Below, piece by piece: positions 15,195 through 51,532 of a DNA stretch of 64,000 nt. Both the position numbers and the translations under genes were made by a program. How positions within the stretch are numbered: the first letter of the stretch is position 1; every line of letters begins with the position of its first letter. A model generated the notes under the pieces. That model was not told where the DNA came from, searched no databases, and saw nothing but the letters and a program-made list of their open reading frames with translations. Source of the stretch: Bryopsis sp. KO-2023 (taxonomy: Eukaryota > Chlorophyta > Ulvophyceae > Bryopsidales > Bryopsidaceae); assembly GCA_030272585.1 (NCBI GenBank), contig BSYQ01000012.1, positions 2,728,001 through 2,792,000 on the forward strand, given 5' to 3'.

Positions 15195-16187
15195 TCACTC
15201 CGGTGCCCCCTGTGCGCGTCTTTTGCGCGACCCCCCTTTAGGAACGTGAGGGGGTTCGAGGCCGGTGCGATCGTAATACATTTTCCCATAGCCGTTTATG
15301 ATATCCTTTAAACGGCCAGTCCACTCCGTACCGAGCTCGCGTTTGTAGCAGGCCGGACACTCGCTCGCGGGAAATGGTTCGTCCAAGCCAGGCACCAAAG
15401 CAACGTCGTCCCCAAGCATCGGGGTACGCGAGTCCTGAAGGATATCCTCCGGTTCCGGGAAAAACCCGTCCTGACGGTGGAACCGTACGGCGCGCGCGGC
15501 CAGGCGGAGGCCGGCGTTATGGGAAAGGCACGTGAGGTGCTTCCCACAACCGATCACTCGGTCGTAGAGCTCCCTCACCGGCCTCCCCGTGGCCGAGCAC
15601 GCAGGACATATGGGGATGCCCCCCCCATCCGCTGGTCCGCCAGTAACCTGGGTTGGAGTCCGGGTCGTCGTGGTCGCCGTTGGGGTGCTTGGAGTCGCTT
15701 TTGGAGTATTCGCCGGTTGTGGCGCGGAAGTCGTGTCGATGGACGTTCCCCCACTTTCGTCCTGGATGACCGTCTCGGTAGCCACTGGGACTGGCATGAC
15801 GAACTTCCCATGGCGTAGTCTGCGGGGGTCCACAATGCGATTGCGCTTTGTCCTGGGACGGTTTGGAACTGGAGACGTCACTGGAAGTGGCTGTCCCAAC
15901 ACCGCTGGTGGTCCCTCGTCCTCACTGCTGGCGCATGTGTCGGGACGAGGTACTGGCGTCACTGGACGTGGCTTGGTGGTGGTCTCGGGTGGTGGAAGGA
16001 TGCGCGGAGTAGCCAGGAAGCCAGAGAGTTCCGTTGGTGATAGAAGAGATCCCTCGTTCGTCCCGTCGCCACTAGGTTGCAATGGCTGGGACGGTGGAAC
16101 CGTCGGCGCAACCTCGGAAGCTTCCTGCGCAGGTCGTCCGACCGAGAGGGCATCGGCGCCTGTGGTGAGGGTCGCGTCGATGCTGGT
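15195..16187 (-). CDS. Element I ORF3, C-terminal part with Cys/His domain
   Basis: This is the downstream part of a third ORF that element II splits; the upstream part lies at 44401-44835. Counting the CCAAG duplication once, the two parts sum to 1428 bp in one frame (475 aa and a stop). This part has a P/T-rich linker, a basic patch (RTKRNRIVDPRRLRHGK), and a C-terminal domain with CPAC, CGKHLTCLSH and, about 53 residues later, CPACYKREL. The spacing CxxC, CxxHxxCxxH, CxxC suggests zinc binding. Related motifs occur downstream of integrase in elements III and IV. I do not recognise the family; it is not the gag CCHC knuckle, not an integrase HHCC domain and not a chromodomain. Function unknown. 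Confidence 0.75.
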   Translation of the reverse strand, partial: TSIDATLTTGADALSVGRPAQEASEVAPTVPPSQPLQPSGDGTNEGSLLSPTELSGFLATPRILPPPETTTKPRPVTPVPRPDTCASSEDEGPPAVLGQPLPVTSPVPNRPRTKRNRIVDPRRLRHGKFVMPVPVATETVIQDESGGTSIDTTSAPQPANTPKATPSTPTATTTTRTPTQVTGGPADGGGIPICPACSATGRPVRELYDRVIGCGKHLTCLSHNAGLRLAARAVRFHRQDGFFPEPEDILQDSRTPMLGDDVALVPGLDEPFPASECPACYKRELGTEWTGRLKDIINGYGKMYYDRTGLEPPHVPKGGSRKRRAQGAPE

Positions 16188-16192
16188 CCAAG
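16188..16192. repeat. Target site duplication of element II (left copy, CCAAG)
   Basis: CCAAG precedes the left LTR of element II and recurs at 44401-44405 after its right LTR, both inside ORF3 of element I. Confidence 0.93.
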
Positions 16193-16425
16193 TGAAACGC
16201 TTCCTCTTACCCCTCTAGCGTTAGGGGTTCAAACACTCAACACACACACATGTGCTCCGGGGGAATCGAACCCTCGACCACACCGCCCAAGGTTATTCAC
16301 CTTGTCGACGGAGCACTCTAGGCCACGATATAAAACGGACGTTAACTCTTTTTGTAATCACTCTTTCAAGTCACCTCAAAAGTGTCGACCGAGGGTTTTT
16401 CCTAAGGCCTCGCGGGTTCGTTTCA
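16193..16425 (+). repeat. 5' LTR of element II (233 bp)
   Basis: Starts TGAAACGC and ends CGTTTCA. It matches 44168-44400 throughout by eye. It carries a TATA-like box (GATATAAAAC near 16329) that could drive transcription, and an antisense tRNA-like segment at 16252-16316. Confidence 0.95.
16252..16316 (-). other. tRNA-like segment inside the LTR of element II
   Basis: On the minus strand this 65-nt segment has a 7-bp acceptor-like stem (GTGCTCC with GGAGCAC), a hairpin AAGGT-GAATA-ACCTT, and a T-arm-like AGGG-TTCGATT-CCCC whose GGTTCGATTCC matches the pol III B-box consensus. No normal D-arm fits, and the length is short for a tRNA. It is present again at 44227-44291. Confidence 0.5.
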
Positions 16426-16426
16426 T

Positions 16427-16438
16427 TGGTTTCGGAGC
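16427..16438 (+). other. Primer-binding site of element II
   Basis: TGGTTTCGGAGC begins one base after the 5' LTR. It would pair with a tRNA ending GCUCCGAAACCA. It resembles the plant initiator-Met site TGGTATCAGAGC with two changes. Confidence 0.8.
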
Positions 16439-16643
16439 TGTTTTCGACTTTCTATTTCGTTTCCAACCTCTTTTTCGTTTTTATTTTCGCCCTTTTCGTC
16501 GTCCTTCGTCGTCCCACGACGCACCTGCAGCAGTCGAATACCAAAACGGTTTCGAACTGCAGCAATTTCGATTGGCTTCCCCAGGCCCCAAAGCTCCACC
16601 ATCTTTTTCACGCGAGTTCGAACTGAGGAAGTGTTCGACTCGC

Positions 16644-17222
16644 CTAGGCTTTTAAAGCCTTTCTCGCCTCCGCCAGCTTAGGACACGAATCAACCATGTG
16701 TCCCTGCGTTTTGCAAAAGAAACAGCGAACTCCACCCAAACCTCGACCTCCACGACCTCGATTTCCACGACCTCGAGTAGAACTCCAACCTTGAGCTTGA
16801 GCGGCTCCCACAGTATTTCTCTGACGTCCACCAGTAAATCGTCCACCTCCAGAAAAACGTCCAGATCCACGTCCACGCCAGAAAGTGCGGCCACGAGCTG
16901 CTCCTCTTATGCTTCCCAACCTTTCTGCCACTAGAACAGCTTCTTCGAAACTGTCAGGCGCCCAGCACATCACTTGCGCCTTGATCGAGTCCAAGCCTTC
17001 CAAAAAGAGGCTGTGTTTTTCGTCGTGCGCCATTTCAGGAACGCGAAAAGCGAGCGTCCTGAACTCGCGTACGTATTGGCTCACCGTGCCCACTTGCCTC
17101 AAACTCCTTAGCTTCTTTCGATTAGTTTCCTGTAGGGTCCTTGGTTCGAACAGGGAACTGCTGGCGAAAAGAAAACGCGAAATTACAGTCTGGGGAATGA
17201 TCATCCCAGAAAAACTGTGCAC
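16644..17222 (-). pseudogene. Inverted, 5'-truncated gag of element II
   Basis: This minus-strand reading frame encodes the C-terminal half of a Ty3/gypsy Gag. It has a capsid-like segment (LRQVGTVSQYVREFRTLAFRVPEM, close to the Gag of element I), a G/R-rich stretch and a CCHC knuckle, CFFCKTQGHMVDSC. It lies between the PBS and protease in the wrong orientation. The N-terminal half of gag is absent. The similarity starts near 17165; upstream codons read antisense element sequence. So gag was inverted and partly deleted, an event inside element II. The ORF shown probably has no start of its own. Confidence 0.8.
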
Positions 17223-19640
17223 AGGGGCGAAATTAAAATTTTACAGAAATATGGACTTAAACTTCGACCTGTATCGAAGTTATCGAAGACGACGGTGGAT
17301 TATCAGAGGATCGAGCAGACAGGGATTAAGGACGTGGGGGTCGAAAGGTCGAACCCTGCAGAAATCGAAGTGTTGGAGATCGATGAGTTGACTGTGGATG
17401 AGCAGTCTAAAAATGAGTCAACTCAGGAGCAGCAGCAGCAGCAGAAAAAGAAGTTGGCTGTGGATGAGCAGACGAAAGATGAGTCAGCTCAGCAGCAGCA
17501 GCAAGCAAAGAAGAAAAAGGAGCAGTTCCACAAGGATGTGATGGTGGAGGAAAGAAGTAATAAAAAGTCAGAAAATCCAGCCCCTCAAGAGCAAGTTAAG
17601 GAGGAGCTGAAACTGGAGATGGAGAAGGGTGTGCAAACTGAAGTGGACTCTAAGGAGGATGAAACCTCAGGTGCAACAAACCCTCAAACAGATTTTTCTG
17701 GAATTAAATTAAAAATAAAAGTGAATGGAATAAAACAATTAGCTTTGGTAGATTCCGGGGCTACAGCAAATTTTATAGACGAGACATTAACGGAACAAAT
17801 GGGTTTGGTTATACATCCGCATACGGAAACGGTGAAAGTAGCGGATATGAATGAAACAAAGATTTTAGGGAAAGTTTATTTTCGGATGAAGTGCGGGCAA
17901 GGTTCTTTTCTTGTTACGGCACTTGTTTTTCCGACATTATTACACCCACTGATTTTAGGATTACCATGGTTAGTGGAATGGAATCCGGAGATTGATTTTG
18001 ATGCAAATGAGCTTAGGATACTTTATCGAGGGAAACGGATTTCGTTACCAACGAATAAACCATCAACTCAAAGGGAAAAACCGCAATTTCTATCCGCAAG
18101 TTCGGCGGCTAGTATTATGAATAGTGTGGACAAGAAAAATAAGAAAATTCAGAAAAATAGCTTTGTCGTGGTGGTTAGAGCCCGGGAAGAAAAAGAAAAA
18201 GAAAAAGAAAAAGAGGGAGAAGTAGATCAAGAGAAAAAGAATCAAGAGGATCTAGAAAAATTACTTTCTAAGGTTGAGGATGAGAAAATCAAGGAAATAT
18301 TAAAAACTCATAGGGAAACGTTTTGCACGGATTTACCGAAGGGTTTACCCCCTAAGCGGTTAGGCCATGAATTTTCGATTGAGTTAGAACCAAATCAAGA
18401 ACCGCCTAATCGGCCTCTTTACCGTTTGAGTCCGGCCGAGTTAGAGGAAGTAAAAACTCAAATCGATTATTTGCTAGAACATGGTTTTATTAGGCCTAGT
18501 GAGAGCCCATTCGGGGCGCCTATTTTATTCGTTCCAAAGAAAGATGGGGGCCTTCGTATGTGTATAGATTATAGGTGGCTTAATAAAATCACAAAGAAAA
18601 ACGTTTATCCCCTTCCTTTACCCGAAGAATTGATTGATAGGGTAGGAAAAGCACGGGTTTTTAGTAAAATAGATTTGCGATCCGGTTATTGGCAAATGCC
18701 GGTAAAAGAAGAGGATATAGAAAAGACGGCGTTTAAGTCGAGGTACGGGCTTTTTGAGTTTTTAGTGCTCCCTTTTGGATGCACTAACGCTCCGGCCCAA
18801 TTCATGTCCATGATGCAAGATATTTTTGGGGACTACCTAGATGATTTCGTGGTTATTTTCTTAGATGATATCTTGATATACTCTCGCTCAATAGAGGAAC
18901 ATTATCGGCATTTAGAACTAGTCTTAAAAAGGTTACGGGACTACAAACTTTTTGCGAAAGCTAGTAAGTGTTCGATAGGGGTTTCTTCAACGGAATACGT
19001 GGGTTATGTCGTGGGTGAACAAGGAATTAGTCCAATGGAGTCTAAGGTCAAAGCGGTGAACGCATGGAAACCACTCACTAGTGTGACGGAAGTTCGGTCT
19101 TTTCTAGGCTTAGTAGGGTATTATAGGAAATTTATACCGGGTTTTGCTAGAATTGCAAGTCCTTTACATGACTTGACTAAGCTTGATAAAATGTGGGAGT
19201 GGGGTGAGAAAGAAGAACAAGCATTCAAGATGCTCAAGACCCTTCTTTCACAAGCACCGGTCCTTGTGATACCCGACCCGGAGCTTCCGTACGTGGTGGT
19301 AACCGATGCAAGTAATGAAGCGTTTGGAGGAGTCCTAATGCAAGATCAAGGAAGTGGAAACCAACCTATTGCGTTCCTATCACGCAAGCTTTCTTCGGGA
19401 GAGAAGAAGTATAGTGCCTACGAGAAGGAACTTGGAGCTATCGCACACGCACTTCAAGCTTGGAGGCATTACCTCGAAGGATGCAAAGGAGGTGTGACGG
19501 TCTACACGGATCACCAACCGGTGGTTTACTTCCTCGATCAAAAGGTGTTATCACGGGTGCAAACACGATATTTGAAATCGGGATATTTTCAAAGCATACG
19601 TCCCACACTCAAGTATTTGCCGGGAAAGGCTAACCTTGTA
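17217..19640 (+). CDS. Element II pol, 5' part: protease, reverse transcriptase, RNase H
   Basis: The polyprotein replicates the element. Seen in order: a Q/K/E-rich leader, protease with LVDSGATANFID, reverse transcriptase with SGYWQMPVKEEDIEKTAF and the catalytic FLDD in VVIFLDDILIYS, then RNase H with VTDASNEAFGGV and TDHQPVVYF. The frame breaks off at 19640 just before ADALSR, where element III entered. The rest is at 42467-44011. Counting the CTTGTA duplication once, both parts total 3969 bp in one frame (1322 aa). The first codons near 17217 lie at the gag inversion breakpoint, so the original start (probably a Gag-Pol junction) is lost. Confidence 0.88.
19635..19640. repeat. Target site duplication of element III (left copy, CTTGTA)
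   Basis: CTTGTA precedes the left LTR and recurs at 42461-42466. Six shared bases rather than the usual five; one may be chance. Confidence 0.85.
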
Positions 19641-20178
19641 TGTAACCTACAAATAGGGTAACCTTGACCGCTGGGGTCACCCCTGCAGCCGTACTTAACG
19701 GTGGTGATGGCGTTTCTGCAGAACGGGAACGGCGGAAGTGGGGACAGCCCCTCTTGAAGTTGATCACACGGCCTTTGCAAGGCACCTTACTCAGGACTCT
19801 TCACACAAGCTTTCTTACAACAATCAATAAAGGTCCAAACTCGAATAAACACAAAAGCCTCACCCAGAATATCCAATAACCTAAGATCAGCCATTAAATA
19901 GGCTGCCGCCTGACTCACCCTAGTCCCACTGATCACCTAGGATCCCACCTACTGATGGGGACTACCTAACCTATCAAGCCTAGCTGATCTTCCTAACCTC
20001 CCTCAATCCCTTCCCTTAGTCTCTACCCCTAGGACCGTCCAACCTCGTCATTTCCGCAGCTGGACTGCTACTTCCAGACTGTGGCTGGACTGTCCTAACT
20101 ACCCCTCCTCTACCCGATAGCACTCTGGCCTTGACCAGTGTGACGAAAACGGTGGAGGCGACGTGGTTTGGGGTTACA
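19641..20178 (-). repeat. 3' LTR of element III (538 bp)
   Basis: On the plus strand it starts TGTAACC and ends GGTTACA. Positions 19649-20178 match 41931-42460. The first 8 bases (TGTAACCT) are missing from the other LTR. Confidence 0.92.
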
Positions 20179-21052
20179 GCTGTAACCACTCCCCTCCTCC
20201 CTGAACTTTTGTCCCCAAAAGTTTTAACATCCCCTCCCCTCTTTTCTGAACTGTTTCTGTGTCTAGACTTCCATTTTCAAGATAACTGGGGTCAGAACTG
20301 TTGGAGAAGTGGTGAATAGAAAGACCTAACTGCCTATTCAACCACTAAGTCCACAGATGCAGTGTCCCCAGTACTACAGAACAAGTGCTAAGTGTCAGTA
20401 TGTTGGGATCCAAAATAAAAGTTTTTTTTTTTTTTTTTTTTCAATTATCACTTTCTGCACAACAGGAAAAATGTCTGTTAACCTTGATAACACAAGCACA
20501 ACACAATCCACAGCTGTTCTGTCAGCTTGTTCACTTCATCCCTAGAAATACTGAGCAACCTGCCTTCTCAACCAGTAGGCTTGTTCTCTTTTTTTTTTTT
20601 TTTTTCTCAGGTCCAATAACCAGCGGTTTCTGTTTGTTTATTCCCCCCCCCCCCCCCCTTTTTTTCATGCCTTCCCCCAAAAAGATACCTAACCCATCAG
20701 ACACCCACTCCTGCCACAGTGTTTTACTGCCTGCCCACTTCAGCAGCAGACAGTCTGATCTCTAACCCTCATAGCAACTTGAAATCATGTATCAAAAAGA
20801 TTTAAGAAAGAACCCTGACCTCTGAACTCTTATTCCCTCTTCCTCACTTCCTTTTCTTTTCCATTCTTACTGGTCCAATCCAGTTCAGCTACTACTTTTC
20901 TTTGAGAAGGCTGTCTCTATAGCCATTCTCATGAAAACCAATAAAACAAAAACAAATAAAAACAATAAAAACAAAAACAAACAGTCACCCCTCCCCCATT
21001 TTCCTTCCTTTTTCTTTTTTTTTTTTTTTTTTTTTTTCACCTTCCCCCCTTT
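20179..21052 (-). other. 3' untranslated region and polypurine tract of element III
   Basis: On the minus strand the purine-rich run about 20187-20201 (GGGAGGAGGGGAGTGG) sits just upstream of the 3' LTR and fits a polypurine tract. The remainder holds long homopolymers (T runs near 20421, 20589 and 21018, a C run near 20643) and no coding content that I can support. Confidence 0.65.
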
Positions 21053-23555
21053 TTAGGCTGTCGGCGGCGGCGGTGGTGGTGGTGGTGGCGGTCCTCCCTG
21101 ACCTCCGCGACAGTGCTCCGGCGGCTCTCCTCCTGCTGCTGGATCGTCTGGACCTTCGTCTTCTCGGGGCCGCTTGGTTGCGCTGCCTCTCTCCAGGGGG
21201 ATCTCGTCAGGGAACGGCCGACGGAGCTCGGGGTATCGCCCCCACATCTCCGCCGTCAGCGTGCGCCAGTATGCCGTCGTTGGGAAGTTTCTGGCTTCCG
21301 CTTCGCATCGCCAGCAGCGATTTTGGAAGACCTCGTCGGCGGTGATGCCAGGGCGATACTCCGGGATCCATGAAAGGTCCGCCGCCGGGATGTCCCCCAG
21401 CGTGAGTTCGCGTCCGCGGCAGAAGAGGTCGGGGCGCCGCAAGGCCACGAGGATGGCCAACACATCCTTGGCACACGCTTTCCAGGATTTTCCAAAGCGG
21501 TCTCGCGAGCAGTGTCGGTGGTGCCCGGGTGTGTTAGCAAACTTACAGGCGGTTGGGATGTACGCGTTGGAGCCGGGCGGTTTTGAACAACGGCTGCAAC
21601 GCGTACCCATCCCTGGAGTGCCGCCGCCGCTGCTCTGGCCGTGCTGTCCCTTTCCATCACCCGGTGCTGTTCCGTCTGGGGGCCCTTCGTCCTCGCCAGT
21701 CTCCGTATCCGTTCCTGAAAAATCCATGACGATCTTCTTGAGCTTCCCTTTTCCTGAGGCGAGTCTAGTGGTTGGGCCCTTCCTTGGCGCTCCTCCCTTC
21801 GATGCTGGAGTCCCGCTTTGGCTTAATCCCGGGGTAGTTCCTGTGGGAGTTCCTGCTCCGAACGCGAATGGGGCTTGGACATTCTGGAACATCTGGAAGG
21901 GGCGTGGTGGCCGAGGTCCCGCCATGGGTGGAGCTGGTGGTCTGATTGGCCCTGGTGGCAGCAAGACGAGTTGGGAGGCTGGAGGCACTTCCTCCGTCGT
22001 TGGGAGTTCAGCTGGTGGATCCTGGGGTCCTGCTTGCTCCGCTTGGTGGGCAAACGGAACTGGATCAGGTTCCTCCACACGAGGCTGTGACACCCTCTCC
22101 TCCCATCCTCTCCGGTAATGCATCCCAGGCAGCGGCTGGTGTCCCGCCAACGACCGATCTCTTTCCTCCCTCTGCAACTCCGCCCATTCCTGAGCCGACA
22201 GTGGCTGTGGATGTGGTGGGCTTCCTGGGATCACATCAGCTGGAGCTGGGAGTTCATCTTCTGGTGTTGTTGGCTGCTCCTCCCCCACTTTCTCCCCAGT
22301 CCCTGCTTCACTCCCAACCAATCCTGAGCCTTCCCCCACTGTGGTTTCCTCATGCTGCCCTCCTCCTGTGGCTGCTGTTGCTGCTGTAGCTGCTGTTGCT
22401 GCTGTTGATCCCTCCAGACCTCCTTGTCCAGGCTGATAGAGTGGCTGTTCTCCTGTTAATGTTGCTGTAGCTTCCTCCAAGTCTTCTGGACCCAACTGAG
22501 GAGGTGGCTTTCCTCCTTCCCCAATGTCCCCAGCCTTGAGGTTTTTCACCGTTTTCTTTCGTGGGTGGCTGCTTCGGGGGTGTAGCGATCCTTTTTCCTT
22601 CCCCGTCAGTTCCGCGATTCGATCCTTCTGGCGATCCAAGAGGTCCGCCATCTTCTTCATCCGCCTCCGTTGTTGCTCCCATTGATTCCACGGCACCATG
22701 TCGCAGGTAGCCTGCGACCCCTGATCCCGCTGCTCTTCTTCGTCGGTTTGGGTGGCAACATTCTGGGTTTCCGGCTGGGTCATATGGCTCGCAAGGATCG
22801 CCGCAAAGTACGCGGCCACTGCATCAATTTGCAGCTCCACCGGCAGATTTCGGAAGGTGGCCGGGAGTTCTACTGGTGGAGGTTGTGATGGCCCGGCTGC
22901 TGGTAAGGCGATCTCCACCATGGGCTCGCTGACCAACTCCTCCACTGTCTCCTCCTCCTGCAATCCATATTCCGCCTCCAAATCTGCTGTATCGAGGCTG
23001 CCGGATTCAGCCATGGGTGTGTCGTCATTTCCTTGCCCTGGTTGATTTCCGCCACCCCCTTGCGATGACCCACTGCCCCCTCGCTCTGGCTGATCGCCGC
23101 CACCCTCACGTGCGCCACCGATTGGCCCTACTCCGCCTCCGCCACTACTCAACACGCCGCATATGATGGCCAGGAAACATACGAATCGGAACATGGTCGC
23201 TGGGCTCTCGAAAAGTGCAAATTCGTCTAACAATTCGCCGCCGCTGTCGGGTTTTTCTGCACTTCCGCCACGAGACTCCTCCACGTCCGTCCTCTCAATG
23301 AGGCGACACTGTACCCTGTCCACAGTCCATGCATCCCTTGGGGTCTGACCCACCTTTACCAAATCCCCACGTAATTCCTGGACCATCCATGGCCCCTGAT
23401 TGAATTCCATCTCCTTGGGGTGGTAGGGGAACCGAGTTGAGCACAACATCACCATGTCCCCTACTTTCAGTTCTGCTGGAGCTTTACCCCGCCTGATCGT
23501 CTCCCAGAGGTGCCCTAGCTGCTGTTTGACCCTTGCTTTCTGCAAGGCTCTGGCA
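21053..23555 (-). CDS. Element III integrase C-terminus fused to a Cys/His-rich protein
   Basis: The frame continues from the integrase at 33651-34666; removing element IV and one ATACT copy gives 3519 bp without a stop. The first ~90 codons here are the integrase C-terminal domain (LKVGDMVMLCSTRFPYHPKE, GPWMVQEL). Next comes a hydrophobic segment (MFRFVCFLAIICGVLSS), then a long G/P/E/Q-rich region, a short basic helix (MKKMADLLDRQKDRIAEL), a basic GKGKLKK patch, and a C-terminal domain: CSRC, GHHRHCSRD, and about 60 residues on CWRCEAEA. This last part resembles the ORF3 ends of elements I and IV. The hydrophobic segment could be a signal peptide of a separately started protein or a buried strand. 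There is no recognisable Env fold. A proline run ends the protein. Function unknown. Confidence 0.72.
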
Positions 23556-23560
23556 ATACT
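23556..23560. repeat. Target site duplication of element IV (left copy, ATACT)
   Basis: ATACT precedes the left LTR of element IV and recurs at 33651-33655 after its right LTR. Confidence 0.94.
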
Positions 23561-23980
23561 TGTTAGTCTTTTAGCGCTATACGAGGTAGTTTGGGATAGA
23601 GCCGAGGGTGGCTGACGCATGTGGGTTCACGAGTAAGACAGATTAGACCCAGAGTTTGGGGCATGCGTCAGCGTACTACACTTAGGGGTACTTAAGAGGC
23701 CCACTCGTTGTTTTGACGTTCACTTTATTTTGTAAGAACTCGGGATTCGTGGGATTGGTGTGTTCCCGCTTGTGTGTGTGTTTGTGTGTGTGTGTGTTAA
23801 GTGTTTGCCTGACGCAATCACTTCCCAACCCAAGTGCTCTAGTAGCGTTCACAACCGCGCTAGCTAGAGAGTTGTCTAAATCAACAAACCCCACAAGTAT
23901 ACTTGCGTTAGCCAGCAAGTTATCACGAATCCAACCAACACAGCCGACCACTATTGCGTCACCCACAAGCTTCACTATCA
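23561..23980 (+). repeat. 5' LTR of element IV (420 bp)
   Basis: Starts TGTTAGTC, ends CACTATCA and matches 33231-33650. It has a GT-rich run (GTGTGTGTGTTTGTGTGTG near 23775) and no obvious TATA box. Confidence 0.95.
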
Positions 23981-23982
23981 AT

Positions 23983-23994
23983 TGGTTTCGGAGC
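23983..23994 (+). other. Primer-binding site of element IV
   Basis: TGGTTTCGGAGC starts two bases after the LTR, the same site as in the other three elements. Confidence 0.85.
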
Positions 23995-24125
23995 GAGGCA
24001 AGAACTTTAAGTTCTTGAGATCGAAACTTGTGAACGTGGCGCAACAAACGTTTTTGTTTGTTTGTTTGGTAGAGAGAAACTCCAACCGTGGTTGTTGAGT
24101 ACTCCCAAATAGTGGCTGAGAGACC

Positions 24126-33216: not shown

Positions 33217-33230
33217 GCGGGGGGGGCGTA
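33217..33230 (+). other. Polypurine tract of element IV
   Basis: The G-rich run GCGGGGGGGGCGTA ends directly at the 3' LTR. This is where plus-strand DNA synthesis would be primed. Confidence 0.75.
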
Positions 33231-33650
33231 TGTTAGTCTTTTAGCGCTATACGAGGTAGTTTGGGATAGAGCCGAGGGTGGCTGACGCATGTGGGTTCAC
33301 GAGTAAGACAGATTAGACCCAGAGTTTGGGGCATGCGTCAGCGTACTACACTTAGGGGTACTTAAGAGGCCCACTCGTTGTTTTGACGTTCACTTTATTT
33401 TGTAAGAACTCGGGATTCGTGGGATTGGTGTGTTCCCGCTTGTGTGTGTGTTTGTGTGTGTGTGTGTTAAGTGTTTGCCTGACGCAATCACTTCCCAACC
33501 CAAGTGCTCTAGTAGCGTTCACAACCGCGCTAGCTAGAGAGTTGTCTAAATCAACAAACCCCACAAGTATACTTGCGTTAGCCAGCAAGTTATCACGAAT
33601 CCAACCAACACAGCCGACCACTATTGCGTCACCCACAAGCTTCACTATCA
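33231..33650 (+). repeat. 3' LTR of element IV (420 bp)
   Basis: Matches the 5' LTR at 23561-23980 and is followed at once by the ATACT duplication. Confidence 0.95.
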
Positions 33651-34666: not shown

Positions 34667-34825
34667 GGCAGCAACTGTGGCAAATCACGAAGTCCGAACG
34701 GTCACGGTGTTCCACGCTACTTTTTCGGGGTTCGTGTGGCCTTGCCTTCAGTCTAGAAGTACCCCCATTGGACCAACAATGGTTCCTCTTTTTCCAGCCA
34801 TGATCTTGAGATCCCCGGAAGATCC

Positions 34826-36664: not shown

Positions 36665-36837
36665 TCTCGCTTCCTGCTCCTTGATCCTCCTGCCTGCTCG
36701 ACGCCACTGTTCTCGTTTACCCGCACGCTTGCCACGCCGCCCTCTTCCCCTTTTTCCTTTATTCCCTTTTGTGGGACCGAACCACCTCCGCCACCCCTTC
36801 AGGTGTCGCCGAAGAAGGACGTCGGTGGCCGGCCCAC

Positions 36838-39800
36838 TTAAAAATCCGAGGAGTCGTAGCTCACCACCCTTGGTGGCTCACTCCTCCCCTCCCCGCCAGC
36901 TGCGGCTGCTGTGGAGGTCCCCCCTCCAGTCTCGCCACCCTCCACTGGCCTCCACCTCTGGGCCTCCCTGCGGAAGTGCCCCAACATCTCCTCCGACTCC
37001 TCCCTCTGTGCGCTCGTCACAGCGTCGCACCTTCGGAAATACTCCCTTGTGATAGCATCCCTTTTTCTCGGTTCTCCCTCGCATCTCAACCTTTCGTCGT
37101 GGATCTTTTTGAACTCCCTCTTTGTCCCTCCGTGGTGCCTCCCCCTGGTGTCCAGTATTTCTGCCTCTTGGTGATACAGATGTGTGGCCGCCGCCTCACT
37201 CATCCCCTTTCCCCGCCGAATAGCGCAGCACTCCTGCAGCACTGCCTTCTGGCGCTTGGTGACCCACAGAGGAGGGGGTTGAGGAACGTAGAGGTAGGGC
37301 TGGATAAACCCATCTGGTCGGCGTTCCCCCGGTGGCGTCTGGCTCGTCATTGAATCCTGCTGTGGCTGCTTTCCAGTGGGGGCTGCTGGCGGTTCTGGGG
37401 CGGCGCTCGTTTCTTCGATCGATCGGAGGGTTTGGTAAACTGCGACGACTGCAGCACTCTCAGGCGTCGTTGTGTGAAGGAACTCGATGGGTACGTGACC
37501 TACTCGCCGTCCAGCCACACACGGAGTGAGCCGCTTGAAACCAAAGTGGATCTCTGTACCGGTATCCACCAACCACGGGGTCCCAATGATCAGGGATAGA
37601 TGTTCGTTCTCCACTACATGGCACGGTACGATCTGTTTGCATTGTCCAAGGGCGATGGGCAGGGCAGGGATGTACCCCAGAGCTTGCCTAGTCTCGCCAT
37701 TGCAATCCCTGTACCTCCCCTTCGGTGCCTCCATCAGGTGGGTCAACCCTGTCCGTGCTAGGAGTTGGGCCGATATCACACAAGCACTCGCCCCCGTATC
37801 AATGATGGCCCCTGGTACCTTGGTCTCCATGATCTTGGCTGTGGCGGTAGTGACTGCATATGGGCTGGGCTTGCCCACTCCCTCCACAGTAGTGATTGCA
37901 GGTACTTTAGCCATGGGCACCCTCAGTGCCTTCAACCATGCATCGATCAACTCCGGGTGGTGCTGGCACAGACTCGCCACTGGAACCTCCGTCATCAGAC
38001 CCTCCACAAACTTTTTGGCCTCTGCCGCCGTAAACATTCTCTTCTCTTTTGGCTCCCCCGCCGTCTTTTTCCCCATTTTCTTTTTCTTGGTCATGGTATT
38101 CCGTGGGGACGGTGGCCGCATGGGTGGAGATAACATAGGTGGTAACATAACCGGTCTCGATCCTTGTGGCTCATCTCGTGGCCTCGGCACATCTTCTGGT
38201 TCAGGTACAGACTTTGTCTTCTCCTCCGGCTCCCGTGGGGGTTCTGGTTCCTTCTTTGGCTCCTCCATCACAATTTCCTCCCCAGCATCTGCTCGAGGTT
38301 CTGAAGGTATTGGGCTCGTGTCCATGGGGGTTCCTCCACTGCCTCCCTGGTCCCCGTCCAAGCCTCCGTGGTCAATATCCATTTCAGAGTACCAGATTGG
38401 TGCCAGAACCTCCTCGGGTCCTTCTGTGGTGGTTGCCCCAGGGTCCGTTTGCTCAAAGTCCATCACCAGGTGGTCCCCCATTTCCGCCTGGAAGAAGTTT
38501 AAATGTTCAGGACACTGGCTGGCATAATGGCCAAGGCGCGAGCAGTGCCAACATCTGACTTTGTTCACATCATAACGCCCTCCTCCCCAGCCTCTTCCTC
38601 CATTGCCATTGTTCCGAGTTCCCCGTCCTCTGCCTCCTCCAGTTCCCCAGCCATTGCCTCTGTAGGCCCCTTGCCCTCTGCCTCCATTGATTGGCACTTG
38701 GTTTGCTCCGGTACCCCCAGTATTTCCATAGTTCCCTCCTCCTGGCTCTGGCACATTAGGCTGTCTCACATCCGCCACCATTCCTGATAGAGTGGAGATC
38801 ATACTTTTGAGTTCGCCAAACTGCTGCCCAGAGGTTCTCACATGCTGCTCCACTCCTCTGAGTCGCGAGTCCGTGGTGGTTTGGTGTTCGCGCACCTCCT
38901 TCCTCAAATTCTCGATTTGTTCGTTCACCCGCTGATCCATAATATTTACTTCCGCCAGGACTGGCTCCATCACTGCTTGGTCCTGCAGTTCCTCCAGTGT
39001 GTTGATCGTTGTCTTTCGCTTTGGCCCCGGCCGCACTTGTCTCTCTTCGATCTGTCTGGCTCTTGCCACTGCTTCATCCAGGGTATCTCCTGTAAAACCC
39101 AGCAGGATGGGGGCAAGATCCTCCCGCACTCCGTTCTTAAACAATTGCAGTAGAAGTTCGTCGGCCACGGCGGGACTGCCTGGGGCTCGACTCGCATTGA
39201 GTTGTTGCTGCATCTGGGAGAGTGCAGAAGCGTATTCCCCCACAGTTTCGTCATTCTTTTGTTTCCGTTCCAAGATACGGGCCACCAACGTCGCTGGCGC
39301 CACTCCAAACCTTGCCAACATGCCCATTTGTAACTCCTGCCATGTCCTTTCTGGGTTCGGCAGCCCTCCCACATGTGTAGGGTGTCTGGCCGTCCAATTG
39401 TCCACCCATGATCGCGCTTTCCCCGTCGTATACAGGACGAGTCTCTCAATTCTCTGATCCTCATGGTCCGGCACCGCTGGTGGTACACTCCACCCTGAGC
39501 CTGTGGCGAGAATCTCGTATGACCGTATCCAGGTGGCCACATCTTCCTTCTCTGCCCCAGTGAAGGCGGTTAACTGACTGTTGATCAGCCTGTTTGGAGG
39601 TCCTCTGGGGTGGGCCATGGCACCGACTCCGCCTGGTGGGTGTGGTGGAGGAGGTGGTGGAGGGACTGGTGGTGGACCAGGTGGTACAGGTGGAACGGGT
39701 GGAGGAACAGGTGGGACTGGTGGTTGGAGATAGGGAAGTCCAACCTCAAAGGCAAATGGGTTCAGCGGGGGCTGGTCCGGTAACGGTTCTTCTTCAGCAC

Positions 39801-41895
39801 TGGAGGATGATCCACTCTCGCCTTCTTCTTCGTCAAAGGCAAAAAATGGGTTCAGCGGGGGCTGATCTGGGGGTAACGATCCTTCCCCAGAACTGGAGGT
39901 CGACTCTCTTTCGCCTTCTCCTTCGTGGGACTCTTCCTCGTCTGAAGTGGTACTCGATGGCTCAGAAGGGTCCTCTGGAAACCCTGGCTCGATACGATAG
40001 GCTCTTCCTTCCGCCCAACTAGCGGCGCTGTGGTACTCAGTTCCTCCGCCTGATCCCGCTCCGTTGGTCTCTCCGCTACTCCCTGGAACGGCCGCACTTC
40101 CTCCTTCCTCAACTGGTTCAACACCGGCTTCCTCGTGGTCAGTGGTTCCAACAAGATCTCCTTCAGAGGCTCCTTCTTCAACAGGTTCGACTCCGACTTC
40201 TTCCACAACAACCTCGGCTTCCTCTTGGTCAGTGGCTCCAACAAGATCTCCTTCGGAGGCTCCTTCTTCAACAGGTTCGACTTCGACTTCTTCCACAACA
40301 ACCTCGGCTTCCTCTTGGTCAGTGGCTCCAACAAGATCTCCTTCGGAGGCTCCTTCTTCAACAGGTTCGACTTCGACTTCTTCCACAACAACCTCGGCTT
40401 CCTCTTGGTCAGTGGCTCCAACAAGATCTCCTTCGGAGGCTCCTTCTTCAACAGGTTCGACTTCGACTTCTTCCACAACAACCTCGGCTTCCTCTTGGTC
40501 AGTGGCTCCAACAAGATCTCCTTCGGAGGCTCCTTCTTCAACAGGTTCGACTTCGACTTCTTCCACAACAACCTCGGCTTCCTCTTGGTCAGTGGCTCCA
40601 ACAAGATCTCCTTCGGAGGCTCCTTCTTCAACAGGTTCGACTTCGACTTCTTCCACAACAACCTCGGCTTCCTCTTGGTCAGTGGCTCCAACAAGATCTC
40701 CTTCAGAGGCTCCTTCTTCAACAGGTTCGTCTCCGACTTCTTCCACAACAACCTCGGCTTCCTCTTGGTCAGTGGTTCCAACAAGATCTCCTTCGGAGGC
40801 TCCTTCTTCAACAGGTTCGACTTCGACTTCTTCCACAACAACCTCGGCTTCCTCTTGGTCAGTGGCTCCAACAAGATCTCCTTCGGAGGCTCCTTCTTCA
40901 ACAGGTTCGACTCCGACTTCTTCCACAACAACCTCGGCTTCCTCTTGGTCAGTGGCTCCAACAAGATCTCCTTCAGAGGCTCCTTCTTCAACAGGTTCGA
41001 CTCCGACTTCTTCCACAACAACCTCGGCTTCCTCTTGGTCAGTGGCTCCAACAAGATCTCCTTCGGAGGCTCCTTCTTCAACAGGTTCGACTTCGACTTC
41101 TTCTACAACAACCTCGGCTTCCCAATCACGGGGAAAGTCTTCGTGGCTCTCTCTTTCCTCGTCCTCCGACTCAACCCTGGGCTGCTCGCTCGCGCTGCCT
41201 TGCTCAGTCTCGTCGTGCACTGTCTCCGCGCTGCCACCAAGGCTCTCTTCACTGATCTCGCTGTCCGGTTTTTCCTCAGGTTCTCCAACTCCTCCAACTT
41301 CGCCTGCGCCGCCACTCAGATCTGGGGAATTTCTGCTTGCCGGGCGTGATCCCTCGGCGTCTCCCTCCGTTCTTTGGTGATACTCGTCTTCAAGACCCTT
41401 GAGGAACTTCGTTTTCCACTGCTGCTCGGCTTTTTGCAGTTCCTCCGATACTCGTTCTTCCACTCGCTCTGTACCCAGCCGTGCTGCCTCGTGCTCTCCC
41501 CAGAACAGCCGTGAGACCTCGTGATCACGCGCTCTGTCTCGGGCTAGCTTGAAAAGACCAGATAAGTCGTTACTGAACAGCTCACGAGTTTGTGAGTCCC
41601 CCTCTTCCTTGGTTAACAGGCCTGTGAGTACACTCTGATATATCCACCAAAAACTCTTCGCGCGGAAACGATGGCACCACACAGCAACCCACTCGTCCTC
41701 AAATATGGCAGGTATGGGTCCGATAAACTCAGGGTGTATTGTCAGGGGTGGTCTATAAGCTACTTCCTCTGCAACCTGTTCCCGTTCCTGCCAATGGTAT
41801 AGGCGCAGGCGAAAGCCAGCCGCCTTTAACTCCTGATCGTCCAGACTGCCTTCCTGCACGTTTTCCCAGAATGTGTAGCACGCCTGCTGCAGCAC
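36838..41895 (-). CDS. Element III Gag with 11 acidic repeats, fused to protease
   Basis: An unusually large 1685-aa Gag-protease. The N-terminal ~200 residues (YHWQEREQVAEEVAYRPP, DEWVAVWCHRFRAKSFWW) are unlike any Gag I know. Residues about 260-590 are eleven copies of a 30-residue acidic repeat (VVVEEVEVEPVEEGASEGDL). A proline run follows. The capsid core has WQELQMGMLARFGVAPATL and VGEYASALSQMQQQLNA. Next come an RG-rich stretch and a CCHC knuckle, CWHCSRLGHYASQC. The protease has GAIIDTGASACVI, about residue 1390. The ATG at 41895 is only about 23 bp from the PBS. The gag stop reads GAT TTT TAA, where a one-base backward slip on TTT enters the RT frame. Confidence 0.87.
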   Translation of the reverse strand: MLQQACYTFWENVQEGSLDDQELKAAGFRLRLYHWQEREQVAEEVAYRPPLTIHPEFIGPIPAIFEDEWVAVWCHRFRAKSFWWIYQSVLTGLLTKEEGDSQTRELFSNDLSGLFKLARDRARDHEVSRLFWGEHEAARLGTERVEERVSEELQKAEQQWKTKFLKGLEDEYHQRTEGDAEGSRPASRNSPDLSGGAGEVGGVGEPEEKPDSEISEESLGGSAETVHDETEQGSASEQPRVESEDEERESHEDFPRDWEAEVVVEEVEVEPVEEGASEGDLVGATDQEEAEVVVEEVGVEPVEEGASEGDLVGATDQEEAEVVVEEVGVEPVEEGASEGDLVGATDQEEAEVVVEEVEVEPVEEGASEGDLVGTTDQEEAEVVVEEVGDEPVEEGASEGDLVGATDQEEAEVVVEEVEVEPVEEGASEGDLVGATDQEEAEVVVEEVEVEPVEEGASEGDLVGATDQEEAEVVVEEVEVEPVEEGASEGDLVGATDQEEAEVVVEEVEVEPVEEGASEGDLVGATDQEEAEVVVEEVEVEPVEEGASEGDLVGATDQEEAEVVVEEVGVEPVEEGASEGDLVGTTDHEEAGVEPVEEGGSAAVPGSSGETNGAGSGGGTEYHSAASWAEGRAYRIEPGFPEDPSEPSSTTSDEEESHEGEGERESTSSSGEGSLPPDQPPLNPFFAFDEEEGESGSSSSAEEEPLPDQPPLNPFAFEVGLPYLQPPVPPVPPPVPPVPPGPPPVPPPPPPPHPPGGVGAMAHPRGPPNRLINSQLTAFTGAEKEDVATWIRSYEILATGSGWSVPPAVPDHEDQRIERLVLYTTGKARSWVDNWTARHPTHVGGLPNPERTWQELQMGMLARFGVAPATLVARILERKQKNDETVGEYASALSQMQQQLNASRAPGSPAVADELLLQLFKNGVREDLAPILLGFTGDTLDEAVARARQIEERQVRPGPKRKTTINTLEELQDQAVMEPVLAEVNIMDQRVNEQIENLRKEVREHQTTTDSRLRGVEQHVRTSGQQFGELKSMISTLSGMVADVRQPNVPEPGGGNYGNTGGTGANQVPINGGRGQGAYRGNGWGTGGGRGRGTRNNGNGGRGWGGGRYDVNKVRCWHCSRLGHYASQCPEHLNFFQAEMGDHLVMDFEQTDPGATTTEGPEEVLAPIWYSEMDIDHGGLDGDQGGSGGTPMDTSPIPSEPRADAGEEIVMEEPKKEPEPPREPEEKTKSVPEPEDVPRPRDEPQGSRPVMLPPMLSPPMRPPSPRNTMTKKKKMGKKTAGEPKEKRMFTAAEAKKFVEGLMTEVPVASLCQHHPELIDAWLKALRVPMAKVPAITTVEGVGKPSPYAVTTATAKIMETKVPGAIIDTGASACVISAQLLARTGLTHLMEAPKGRYRDCNGETRQALGYIPALPIALGQCKQIVPCHVVENEHLSLIIGTPWLVDTGTEIHFGFKRLTPCVAGRRVGHVPIEFLHTTTPESAAVVAVYQTLRSIEETSAAPEPPAAPTGKQPQQDSMTSQTPPGERRPDGFIQPYLYVPQPPPLWVTKRQKAVLQECCAIRRGKGMSEAAATHLYHQEAEILDTRGRHHGGTKREFKKIHDERLRCEGEPRKRDAITREYFRRCDAVTSAQREESEEMLGHFRREAQRWRPVEGGETGGGTSTAAAAGGEGRSEPPRVVSYDSSDF
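40130..41119. repeat. 90-bp tandem repeat, about 11 copies, in gag of element III
   Basis: The unit encodes an acidic 30-residue repeat. Copies differ at a few positions (E/G in VEEV(E/G)VEP, A/T in VG(A/T)TDQE, one GDEP). Because 90 is a multiple of 3 and the unit lacks stops in other frames, several long overlapping ORFs on both strands arise here by chance. Confidence 0.92.
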
Positions 41896-41918
41896 AGCTC
41901 AAAAGTGTGCGCAACCTG

Positions 41919-41930
41919 GCTCCGAAACCA
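41919..41930 (-). other. Primer-binding site of element III
   Basis: On the minus strand TGGTTTCGGAGC follows directly on the shortened 5' LTR, without the usual small gap. Confidence 0.8.
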
Positions 41931-42460
41931 ACAAATAGGGTAACCTTGACCGCTGGGGTCACCCCTGCAGCCGTACTTAACGGTGGTGATGGCGTTTCTG
42001 CAGAACGGGAACGGCGGAAGTGGGGACAGCCCCTCTTGAAGTTGATCACACGGCCTTTGCAAGGCACCTTACTCAGGACTCTTCACACAAGCTTTCTTAC
42101 AACAATCAATAAAGGTCCAAACTCGAATAAACACAAAAGCCTCACCCAGAATATCCAATAACCTAAGATCAGCCATTAAATAGGCTGCCGCCTGACTCAC
42201 CCTAGTCCCACTGATCACCTAGGATCCCACCTACTGATGGGGACTACCTAACCTATCAAGCCTAGCTGATCTTCCTAACCTCCCTCAATCCCTTCCCTTA
42301 GTCTCTACCCCTAGGACCGTCCAACCTCGTCATTTCCGCAGCTGGACTGCTACTTCCAGACTGTGGCTGGACTGTCCTAACTACCCCTCCTCTACCCGAT
42401 AGCACTCTGGCCTTGACCAGTGTGACGAAAACGGTGGAGGCGACGTGGTTTGGGGTTACA
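41931..42460 (-). repeat. 5' LTR of element III (530 bp)
   Basis: Matches 19649-20178 throughout. It lacks the 8-bp inner end (AGGTTACA on the minus strand) that the 3' LTR has. Confidence 0.9.
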
Positions 42461-42466
42461 CTTGTA

Positions 42467-44011
42467 GCCGATGCTTTGAGTAGATCCACACCCAAAGTGA
42501 ATGAGACTAATACCTTGGGAACAATTGGAGTGACATTAGCGTTCCAAGGAACGGAATTAGAAGAATGGAAGCAAGCACAAGAGAGAGACACAATGTGTGA
42601 GGGAATTATTCAAGGCTTACATCATCATGCGGAGCAATATTCGACACACTACCGGATGTCAACGGAGGGACTCTTGGAGAAAAGGATAGAGAACGGCGAG
42701 TGGCGGATTGTGGTTCCAAAGGAAAAGAGAAGACAAGTCTTGGAGCACAATCATGACTTACCACATGCGGGGCATGCGGGTCAAGCAAAAACACTTGAGA
42801 TGATTTCACGTCATTATTGGTGGAAAGGAATGCGGAGTTCGGTGGCCGAATATGTGAGAACATGTCCTATGTGCCAAACCATCAAGCCGGACACTCAACG
42901 GAAGAAAGGATTATTAAATCCTTTACCTATTCCGGAGAGAAAATTTCAACACGTGACAACCGACTTGATTACCGACCTACCGGAAAGCAAGGGCTACTCC
43001 GCCATCGCGGTCTTCGTGGATCGCCTTACGAAGATGGTGAAGTTAGCTCCATGTTCCAAGGAGGTGGATGCGAAGAAATACGCAACCATTCTCTTTGATA
43101 CGGTGTTTCGTTCTTTCGGAATGCCGGAGGTAATAATCTCGGATCGTGATCCTCGCTTCATGAGCTCTTTTTGGAAGCATTTGTGTGCAAAGGTGGGCGT
43201 GGAACACAAGGCAAGCACTTCCTTCCATCCCCAAACGGATGGACAAACGGAAGTGGTGAATAAAACAATCGAGAACTACTTGCGACCGTATGTAGAAGTG
43301 AAGCCGGAGGAATGGATAGACTACTTGGGGATCGCGGAATTTGCGATTAATAACACGGTGAATAGTACCACGGGGTACTCACCTTTCCACTTAGCATATG
43401 GACAAAAAGGATTTGTCCCGGACGCACTCCTCACCGGAGTCTCCACACAAGAAAAGACCAAGAACGAGGATGCCCAAGCGATGTTTGAAAGGATGCACAA
43501 GGAGCTACGTGACGCGAAGGAAAATTATGCAAAGGCGCAAGAGCGGATGCAACGGGTAGCAAATCGTCAAAGGCGTCATGAGACCTATCAAGTGGGAGAT
43601 GAAGTATGTCTTAACGCCAAGGATCTAAGCTTTGCATTCAAGAAGACCTTACCAACAAAGCTTCGACGACGATTTCTTGGGCCCTTCAAAATCGCTAAGG
43701 TGGTGAGCGATGTTGCTTATAAACTCGATCTACCCGACACTTGGAGAATTCATAATGTTTTTCATATTGACAAATTGAAAACGTTTAATCGCTCCATGGA
43801 ATTTACTCGGGACATCACGCCACCGGAGGCAATAGAGATAGAAGGAGAATTAGAGTTTGAGGTGGAAAGAATTTTACGTCACCGTGGAAAAGGAAAGAAA
43901 CTTGAATATTTGATTTTATGGAAAGGTTATCCGGCCCATGAGGCTACGTGGGAGTCAAAAAGAAACGTGGCTAACGCTCCCGAAAGGGTACAAGAATATT
44001 GGGAAAGATAA
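42467..44011 (+). CDS. Element II pol, 3' part: integrase and chromodomain
   Basis: Continues the pol frame broken at 19640, starting at the RNase H end (ADALSRST). Integrase has the HHCC module (HAGHAGQAKTLEM, CPMCQTIKPD), D in TTDLITDLPES, D in [10 protein letters not shown] and E in HPQTDGQTEVVNKTIENY. The C-terminal module has RRRFLGPFKIAKVV, and the chromodomain has FEVERILRHRGKGKKLEYL and LWKGYPAHEATWE. The stop is at 44009-44011. Only 156 bp separate it from the 3' LTR, so there is no room for an ORF3. Confidence 0.92.
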   Translation, partial: ADALSRSTPKVNETNTLGTIGVTLAFQGTELEEWKQAQERDTMCEGIIQGLHHHAEQYSTHYRMSTEGLLEKRIENGEWRIVVPKEKRRQVLEHNHDLPHAGHAGQAKTLEMISRHYWWKGMRSSVAEYVRTCPMCQTIKPDTQRKKGLLNPLPIPERKFQHVTTDLITDLPESKGYSAIAVFVDRLTKMVKLAPCSKEVDAKKYATILFDTVFRSFGMPEVIISDRDPRFMSSFWKHLCAKVGVEHKASTSFHPQTDGQTEVVNKTIENYLRPYVEVKPEEWIDYLGIAEFAINNTVNSTTGYSPFHLAYGQKGFVPDALLTGVSTQEKTKNEDAQAMFERMHKELRDAKENYAKAQERMQRVANRQRRHETYQVGDEVCLNAKDLSFAFKKTLPTKLRRRFLGPFKIAKVVSDVAYKLDLPDTWRIHNVFHIDKLKTFNRSMEFTRDITPPEAIEIEGELEFEVERILRHRGKGKKLEYLILWKGYPAHEATWESKRNVANAPERVQEYWER

Positions 44012-44154
44012 ATCTTTTTCTAGAACGGAAGTTGATCACGTTTATCGGGAAGTAGGGATGGAGAGGTTAGATGAAGAGATGGTGTCCTCTACCTAGTTAC
44101 CCTACCGGGTCACACTCGTTCTTAGTGGAAAGGATCTATGGGTCTAGATCTTGT

Positions 44155-44167
44155 AAGGGGGGAGGAG
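44155..44167 (+). other. Polypurine tract of element II
   Basis: AAGGGGGGAGGAG ends directly at the 3' LTR. Confidence 0.85.
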
Positions 44168-44400
44168 TGAAACGCTTCCTCTTACCCCTCTAGCGTTAGG
44201 GGTTCAAACACTCAACACACACACATGTGCTCCGGGGGAATCGAACCCTCGACCACACCGCCCAAGGTTATTCACCTTGTCGACGGAGCACTCTAGGCCA
44301 CGATATAAAACGGACGTTAACTCTTTTTGTAATCACTCTTTCAAGTCACCTCAAAAGTGTCGACCGAGGGTTTTTCCTAAGGCCTCGCGGGTTCGTTTCA
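44168..44400 (+). repeat. 3' LTR of element II (233 bp)
   Basis: Identical by eye to 16193-16425, including the antisense tRNA-like segment (44227-44291). Followed by the CCAAG duplication at 44401-44405. Confidence 0.95.
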
Positions 44401-44835
44401 CCAAGCCTCCTCGAGGGTGTGGCGAATGCTGGCCACACGCTGGTTATCCACCTCGGCTGCGGCTTGTACCACGAGTTTGAGCCTGTCCTGGGCTTCCTTC
44501 GCGTCGGACTGTCTCAATTTCTTCTCTCGGTTTTCCCTGTCGAGCGCACCGCGTTGCAGCATACTCGCCAGTTCCGCCTCCTTCTTGGCGCCCTCGAGCT
44601 GACGCTTGACCGTTTCCAATTCCGTCTCGGCCACATCTTTTTCTCCTTTAATCTTTTCCAGCTCGGTTTTCAGCTCGTCGACCGTCTTGTCCGCTTTAAC
44701 CTTCGCCAACTCGGCTTCCAATTCCGTGATCTTTTTCTCCGCTGATTCCGCCCTCGCAGTTTCCTCCGCCAACTTGCGTTCCAACTCCTCCTTTTCCGTC
44801 TGCATATTCTGAGCCATTTCCAGGAAGGTCGCCAT
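44401..44835 (-). CDS. Element I ORF3, N-terminal coiled-coil part
   Basis: Starts at an ATG at 44835. Almost the whole 145-residue segment is a charged coiled coil (KITELEAELAKVKADKTVDE, LKTELEKIKGEKDVAETELE). It is cut by element II at CCAAG and resumes at 16187. It lies 320 bp downstream of the pol stop. Layout and composition match ORF3 of element IV, though the sequences have diverged strongly. Confidence 0.8.
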
Positions 44836-48985: not shown

Positions 48986-49095
48986 ATTTGTTTGTTTGCT
49001 CCCATATCTTTGCCTTATTCCCTGGTCCCCTCCTGCCGTCCCGCTTGCATCGTCGTATCGTCCGTCCGGGACTGACGATGCAGCGTCCCGGACGG

Positions 49096-51530: not shown

Positions 51531-51532
51531 GT

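Follow-up and report, generated by a model that had tools for sequence, protein, structure and literature searches.

A coiled-coil and Cys/His accessory gene downstream of pol in Ty3-type retrotransposons of Bryopsis, with a relative in a likely KDZ DNA transposon

The window analysed here is a stretch of 64,000 nucleotides (nt) of the assembly of Bryopsis sp. KO-2023, a siphonous green alga (C12:2728001-2792000; 91.1 Mb and 28 contigs in all). Four Ty3-type long terminal repeat (LTR) retrotransposons are nested in it (I > II > III > IV, I being the outermost). Two of them, elements I and IV, carry a separate open reading frame (ORF3) downstream of pol that encodes a C-terminal Cys/His domain with eight putative ligands, preceded by a coiled coil and a basic patch. 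This domain is present in over a dozen families of the Bryopsis genome. ORF3 is under purifying selection (omega, the ratio of nonsynonymous to synonymous divergence, is about 0.1) and its history is partly separate from that of pol. We propose, at a probability of roughly 0.4, that ORF3 encodes a nuclear accessory protein supporting element expression, probably by anti-silencing. Its parts in the window are the following.

44401..44835, minus strand: N-terminal, coiled-coil half of the ORF3 of element I; 145 amino acids (aa) from the ATG, cut by element II; the start is the same as in locus L019
15195..16187, minus strand: C-terminal half of element I ORF3, with linker, basic patch and Cys/His domain
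15348..15608, minus strand: Cys/His core of I, CPAC ... CGKHLTCLSH ... CPAC
31221..33035, plus strand: element IV ORF3, 604 aa, with coiled coil, basic patch, acidic linker and Cys/His domain
32571..32867, plus strand: Cys/His core of IV, CIWC ... LPCGYHLVCDAH ... CNMC

In the intact family I copy L019, ORF3 is 475 aa long from its ATG. The original prediction, made from the window sequence, had assigned the frame at 15195-16187 (-) to element I. This is the Cys/His half, while the coiled-coil half lies separately at 44401-44835, split off by element II. The gap between pol and the ORF3 start codon is 450 nt in IV and 285-329 nt in eight sampled I-like copies, family I included. The heptad score beats all 200 shuffles in six of eleven ORF3s (L019 for family I, IV, L021, L027, L034 and L055), as expected from the coiled coil predicted in both I and IV. 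It is matched by 1, 1, 4 and 1 of 200 shuffles in L022, L024, L026 and L028 respectively, and by 14/200 in L058. Basic patches resembling nuclear localisation signals were seen by reading the ORF3 sequences, among them those of I and IV, where one had also been predicted. A short basic tail like GPRTRSxx, possibly a second linear motif, ends ORF3 in L022, L024, L026, L027, L028 and L034.

The I and IV domains fit C-x2-C, 16 or 21 residues, C-x2-H-x2-C-x2-H, 53 or 60 residues, C-x2-C. A six-frame regular expression search of the window returned exactly three Cys/His patterns and no others, at 15348-15608 (-) in I, 32571-32867 (+) in IV and 21305-21598 (-) in III, the three elements in which they had been predicted. 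The same expression, written after the motifs were known, gave 0 matches in 60 triplet-shuffled windows. The single CxxHxxCxxH-like pattern proposed for all three elements holds for I and IV; III lacks the second His. A chance pattern was considered for the ORF3 domain and rejected on its copies, its selection and its fold.

Homology of the I and IV domains, as originally proposed, is supported by profile-profile comparison. A first hhalign profile of 12 I-like rows matched IV with a probability of 25.6% (E 7e-4), and 0/200 shuffles scored as high with Cys/His fixed or free, the best fixed shuffle being close. Twenty representative loci were read, then L055-L061; thirteen more diverse I-like rows make up alignment A5. 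With these the match to IV reached 75.7% (E 2.4e-5, 89 columns), a score attained by 0/150 shuffles, either Cys/His-fixed or full. All eight ligands occur in order in the 13 rows of this alignment and in IV, and the ending C-x-x-C-x-K in 12 of the 14 I/IV-type rows, IV included.

A structural model had been suggested with the original prediction. AlphaFold2 gives a confident fold for the domain of I (predicted local distance difference test, pLDDT, 86.3; predicted template modelling score, pTM, 0.81), in which short strands precede a helix starting at ligands 5-6. The eight ligands probably bind two zinc ions. Pfam, PDB and BFVD hold nothing that matches the domain significantly; the PDB sequence search gave nothing for I-like rows or IV, and three matches for III at E 0.15-0.63 that were taken as chance. 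Since there is no significant Pfam match, the I/IV module is not a gag knuckle, an integrase HHCC domain or a chromodomain, in agreement with the original prediction. The retroviral gag CCHC knuckle, C-x2-C-x4-H-x4-C, does not fit the domain when the sequences are read, and no zf-CCHC match was found in the ORF3s of I, III and IV. Chromodomain identity was rejected on the Pfam result. Env can also be set aside for I and IV, as predicted: no membrane segment appears in 16 I/IV-type ORFs, where the top Kyte-Doolittle 19-mer is 0.42-1.42. The III-type ORFs differ in this respect (see below). Among the titles and abstract beginnings listed by searches of the open-access literature, none describes such a module.

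RING-like zinc binding is possible. The domain could be a divergent RING-type cross-brace, ORF3 then being an E3 ligase or an E3 decoy that removes a host restriction factor. RING fingers are C3HC4 or C3H2C3 with the order C1 C2 C3 H4 [C/H]5 C6 C7 C8 and C5-x2-C6; their 6-7 spacer is limited to 48 residues, and many carry a Lys directly after the last Cys. The ORF3 domain agrees with this order and spacing to ligand 5 (C-x2-C, 8-21 residues, C-x(2-3)-H-x2-C), ends in CP-x-C in 13/14 rows and has its modelled helix past the central cluster. Single members give weak matches to Prok-RING_4 (E 0.04), zf-RING_5 (0.28) and Sina_RING (8.4). However, the I/IV-type order is C C C H C H C C, with His at ligand 6 in 14/14 rows, and the 6-7 spacer of 39-60 residues is above the limit in 9/14. 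The conserved Lys lies two residues past the last Cys (12/14) and not directly after it; only L059 has an Arg there. The III-type domains depart further, their sixth ligand being a Cys 9-12 residues past the fifth. No RING-type Pfam model reaches E<=0.001 with 13 I-like rows, IV and 4 III-type rows (the best, E 0.04, is in one member), and no RING fold was found by Foldseek or VIA-align. A RING/E3 or anti-silencing role, in line with what the original prediction had conceived, is compatible with these data, but an E3 function appears quite unlikely.

All genome copy counts are lower bounds. When the genome was searched with the I domain, 113 of 127 candidates matched; 9 of these matches are 92-100% identical over the full query and the rest either 30-62% identical or close but partial. 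The III search gave 58 matches from 60 candidates. For IV, 63 of 70 scored ORF copies (339 candidates) and 150 of 150 scored domain copies (275 candidates) are without a stop; IV copies fill the matches listed in the latter search, and no relatives beyond them were seen among these (150/275 scored). ORF3 is preceded by a pol that ends in a chromodomain in L019, L022, L024, L027, L028, L030, L032 and L034, and also in L026, L059 and L060. A chromodomain string is found at this place in L023, L025, L029, L031 and L033, while L055 shows reverse transcriptase (RT) to H2C2. No pol was found in the fetched flanks of L020 or of the C12 copy of L058. The L058 locus (C12:1363631; second copy at C8:2549466) is a 262-aa open frame with a coiled-coil-like part and a Cys/His domain, and could be host-captured. 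Contig C2 has by eye more short, diverged or stop-bearing matches than the other contigs, as if it kept old copies.

Outside this genome, the IV region has no match at E<=1e-3 (335 candidates). The I-like C-terminal profile has a single one, P0003, on a 1,153-bp contig of a Parasphingorhabdus record. It is 99% identical to the ORF3 of family L027 and is therefore probably algal DNA in a bacterial bin. The only match of the III region is the Bryopsis sp. KO-2023 protein BSKO_13189, 100% identical. IMG/VR holds no relative of one I-like ORF3 (L030) or of III.

Purifying selection across genomic copies, which the original prediction had proposed to examine, is evident. Among L027 and L029-L033, 14 of 15 pairs have an ORF3 omega of 0.09-0.13; the remaining pair, L029-L030, is nearly identical (synonymous divergence, dS, 0.008; omega 0.31). 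In the three pairs of L022, L023 and L025, ORF3 omega is 0.10-0.24. Over the whole ORF3, dS is saturated in the six pairs with L028, and omega of the Cys/His domain is <=0.16 wherever defined. The possibility that ORF3 is a functionless passenger is rejected on these values.

The partly separate history of ORF3 and pol is seen in L028 and L030, which are 96% identical in integrase (IN) and 95% in RT, yet only 55% in the ORF3 domain; dS is 0.56 in pol and saturated in ORF3. The L027/L030 pair has dS 0.06 in pol and 0.30 in ORF3. In the pol piece, dS between L030 and L032 is 0.61-1.95 over the first 480 codons and 0.02-0.54 over the remainder, which is a recombination pattern.

The L021 family comprises six copies with one near-identical domain and has no pol in the fetched flanks. 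Over about 9 kb its C5 and C4 copies share 97-99% identity, followed by 1.6 kb at 91%. The ORF3 relative has a coiled coil and its domain is 40% identical to that of I. In both copies it faces an ORF with matches to KDZ transposase (E 4e-4; 20.5-20.6 bits for a cut-off of 26.6) and Chromo (E 6e-4), and a CxC5 match (E 9e-5 and 3e-4; 21.2-23.1 bits for a cut-off of 26.9) lies upstream of the KDZ ORF on the same strand. Because two KDZ-associated domains occur on one strand in two copies, the carrier is likely a KDZ DNA transposon. The CxC clusters of KDZ transposases (Pfam CxC5 and kin) are also Cys clusters in KDZ elements. However, no CxC model matches any ORF3 domain row at E 10, and CxC5 in the L021-family element is a separate ORF stretch from the ORF3 relative. 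In the domain tree the L021 copy lies near I and L020, with weak support. ORF3 seems to have been exchanged between element classes (LTR and DNA transposon). Exchange among families, one of the origins originally considered for the module, is borne out by the mismatch between ORF3 and pol dS and by this relative in a probable KDZ element.

The L021-type unit also encodes a second protein (L064:931-2079 (-)) in which a coiled coil and a basic patch are combined with a different type of Cys/His cluster, CxxC, CxxHxxCx4C then DxxW, CxxC. For six of the seven loci of this second type, an L021-type ORF is found 2.8-6.6 kb away, measured from start to start. Relatives occur in other multicopy families (L076, L077), in L076 directly after a Ty3 pol. 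Neither the I-like profile (E 0.21, 0.27 and 0.034) nor the merged I+IV profile (0.17, 0.11 and 0.013) gives a significant match to P0005, L076 and L077, respectively, and shuffles of P0005 reach the profile score in 31/100. A match of IV to P0005 at E 3e-4 was dropped: it spans 18 columns, in which the opening CxxC of IV falls on the closing CxxC of P0005. Type-B ORF pairs (454 and 449 aa) are 14.0-14.3 kb apart in four of five places (C4:2017398/2031387, C4:3216685/3230926, C7:437384/451719 and C15:205509/219851) and 23.8 kb apart in the fifth (C13), as if one large element may carry two.

These features would suit the following scheme. ORF3, as an accessory gene of Bryopsis mobile elements, would encode a protein that oligomerises via its N-terminal coiled coil and so becomes multivalent. 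The site of action would be the nucleus, where the protein would work in trans on its own family's copies, the Cys/His domain docking it on nucleic acid or on a factor of host chromatin or silencing. Element transcripts could then be made despite host silencing. We infer zinc binding, nuclear location, oligomerisation and anti-silencing alike. A gene carried by both a retrotransposon and, probably, a DNA transposon points to a step shared by the two, for example escape from silencing. Such escape is well documented, VANC and TET/JBP being precedents (PMC10398659, PMC12730594). A broader and in our opinion doubtful extension is that Bryopsis transposons share a trans-acting accessory superfamily with a Cys/His domain of undescribed fold, moved between class I LTR and class II KDZ elements and disarming silencing family by family. 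The second Cys/His type, in the same KDZ element and after a Ty3 pol, would be a parallel case, and elements would trade such genes repeatedly.

Several points weigh against the proposal of an exchanged anti-silencing gene. Any other nuclear step aided by ORF3 would look alike. Element II has no ORF3 in its window copy, where the stretch between the end of pol (44011) and the start of the LTR repeat (44166) leaves no room for one. Constraint is loose in the C-terminal tails past the domain, with omega 0.17-1.07 in the pairs that allow an estimate. In the L021-family element, the scores for KDZ, CxC5 and Chromo are all below the Pfam curated cut-offs, and a genome-wide KDZ search did not pick this element up. 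The difference between pol and ORF3 is not universal, dS being similar for the two in L030/L031 and L022/L025, and gene conversion of pol would yield a difference of the same sign.

The gap between pol and ORF3 contains a conserved motif.

45075..45088, minus strand: 14-nt motif GGYYGGWATGGGAC of element I, between the pol stop and the ORF3 start; the only match in the window

It occurs once each in 15 of 27 loci scanned, always in this gap; the 15 loci, some of them close copies of one another, represent about seven families. The motif is not found in II, III or IV, nor in the available sequence of the L055, L059 and L060 families. It is fixed, although synonymous pol sites between the more distant carrier families are at or near saturation. 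Possible identities are a promoter, an RNA element and a binding site.

An RNA element here would favour a different function, in which ORF3, like Rev or CERV, would regulate the export or expression of genomic RNA, multimerising on element RNA in the nucleus and carrying it to the cytoplasm. CERV is the RNA-export protein of Cer1, a Ty3/gypsy element of C. elegans, and the layout of ORF3, a separate ORF after pol, resembles it. CERV is an element-specific extra protein with a potential leucine zipper, a candidate NLS (nuclear localisation signal) and a Cys-rich region; it diverges strongly, and no homology is obvious beyond nematodes (PMC10309623). It differs in being made from a spliced mRNA and in its H, M and G domains, the likeness to ORF3 being by description only. 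No spliced ORF3 mRNA is known, and a probable KDZ DNA transposon, having no genomic RNA to export, contains an ORF3 relative. We know of no DNA-transposon relative of CERV, and an export function for ORF3 seems unlikely.

ORF3 could also belong to the particle, as a structural component or a nucleic-acid chaperone, comparable to a coiled-coil ORF1p that binds nucleic acid through a zinc-containing end. The combination of coiled coil, basic patch and Cys/His domain is consistent with this, and reticulate ORF1 modules are reported for Jockey LINEs (PMC4120745). However, a CCHC-like knuckle can already be read in the gag ORFs of IV and III, and a KDZ transposon forms no particle; such a role is quite improbable.

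The proposed anti-silencing role has counterparts among accessory genes described elsewhere. VANC of the Arabidopsis VANDAL transposons is likewise an accessory protein encoded by a transposable element, differing from family to family and acting on noncoding parts of its own family (PMC10398659). It is carried by VANDAL transposons and not by LTR elements, is likened to ORF3 by description only, and neither "zinc" nor "coiled" is mentioned in that text (PMC10398659). The TET/JBP genes of fungal DNA transposons are transferred among transposons and thought to be anti-silencing, but encode an enzyme; according to the paper, no retrotransposon carrying them was found (PMC12730594), unlike ORF3, found in LTR and probable KDZ elements. 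Orchid Ty3/gypsy elements have also gained an extra domain, an m6A demethylase (PMC9289625), which in contrast is a known enzyme domain. Transposon escape from silencing is known in few cases, and an accessory gene common to retrotransposons and a DNA transposon would be rarer still. In this alga, more than a dozen families share a single undescribed domain, and many of them have copies that are open and under selection; the ORF3-lacking element II is a neighbouring natural contrast. Bryopsis sp. KO-2023 is a published strain with cell-biology tools.

Element III ends in a related arrangement whose kinship is less clear.

21053..23620, minus strand: extra region of element III, C-terminal part of integrase and extra region ending in a Cys/His domain
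21305..21598, minus strand: Cys/His core of III, CSRC ... TAC ... GHHRHC ... C ... CWRC

The predicted segment 21053-23555 is out of frame, the open frame being 21053-23620. The region is fused to integrase, and many other copies have it within a single open frame of about 1,180 aa. III keeps C-x2-C, C, H-x2-C and C-x2-C. In 4/4 III-type rows a Cys 9-12 residues past H-x2-C replaces the second His, and L057 has also lost one Cys of the last pair. A coiled coil is not clear, the heptad score being reached by 10/200 shuffles. A hydrophobic segment (Kyte-Doolittle 1.83-2.04 versus <=1.42 in the 16 I/IV-type ORFs) lies well before the Cys/His domain in 3/3 III-type ORFs, so the exclusion of Env does not extend to them. 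This stretch, at 23129-23185 (-) in the window and also in L036 and L037, is a possible signal peptide or anchor.

The III ending may be unrelated to I and IV, its Cys/His spacing being convergent and its protein a membrane-anchored or secreted one of another kind; we give this a substantial chance, short of even. The hydrophobic segment and the fusion to integrase speak for it. In the profile-profile comparison that the original prediction had called for, III alone has no match to IV (E 0.16-0.26), and all four III-type rows reach a probability of only 0.6-4.3% with the I-like profile. Against the merged I+IV profile, the four rows reach 13.4% (E 0.0021). The all-III score is attained by 1/200 full column shuffles, whereas Cys/His-fixed shuffles attain it in 11/200, and in 11/150 with the merged profile. 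III is directly similar to L036 (E 1e-9 to 1e-8), and the helix order of a weak III model agrees with I. L036 and L057 together match the I-like profile at E 4.7e-4 (Cys/His-fixed shuffles 7/150) and the merged profile with 72.3% probability (E 3.3e-5, 107 columns; fixed shuffles 0/150). As both rows were picked after the first result, this match is support and not proof. The evidence for the same module in III is suggestive; its presence there, claimed in the original prediction, is not established, given the different ligand set, the hydrophobic segment and profile support in a subset only.

The nesting recognised in the original prediction is real, as repeat pairs and domain scans show.

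14710..51714, minus strand: element I, chromodomain Ty3-type, identical 182-bp LTRs at 14710-14891 and 51533-51714, interrupted by II
45155-48985, minus strand: pol of element I, with RT, RNaseH, IN, SH3 and Chromo
16191..44400, plus strand: element II, chromodomain Ty3-type, identical LTR repeats at 16191-16425 and 44166-44400, interrupted by III
17217-19661 and 42413-44011: pol of element II, in two parts around III
19644..42460, minus strand: element III, Ty3-type, 535-bp LTRs 99.8% identical, interrupted by IV
34826-36664 and 33629-34666: RT and IN of element III
23561..33652, plus strand: element IV, chromodomain Ty3-type, high copy, identical repeats at 23561-23982 and 33231-33652

All four elements are young, since their LTR pairs are identical (I, II, IV) or 99.8% identical over 535 bp (III). 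A chromodomain follows integrase in I, II and IV. None was found in the scanned parts of III, as had been noted. In RT and IN trees, the positions of II and IV are not firm. The gag ORF of element III contains a 90-bp tandem repeat of about eleven units (40029-41228). An inverted repeat with 121-nt arms, 91% complementary and 92 nt apart, lies at 59397-59730. The assembly shows plant-type telomere repeats and includes a 91.7-kb contig with a gene read as a green-type rbcL.

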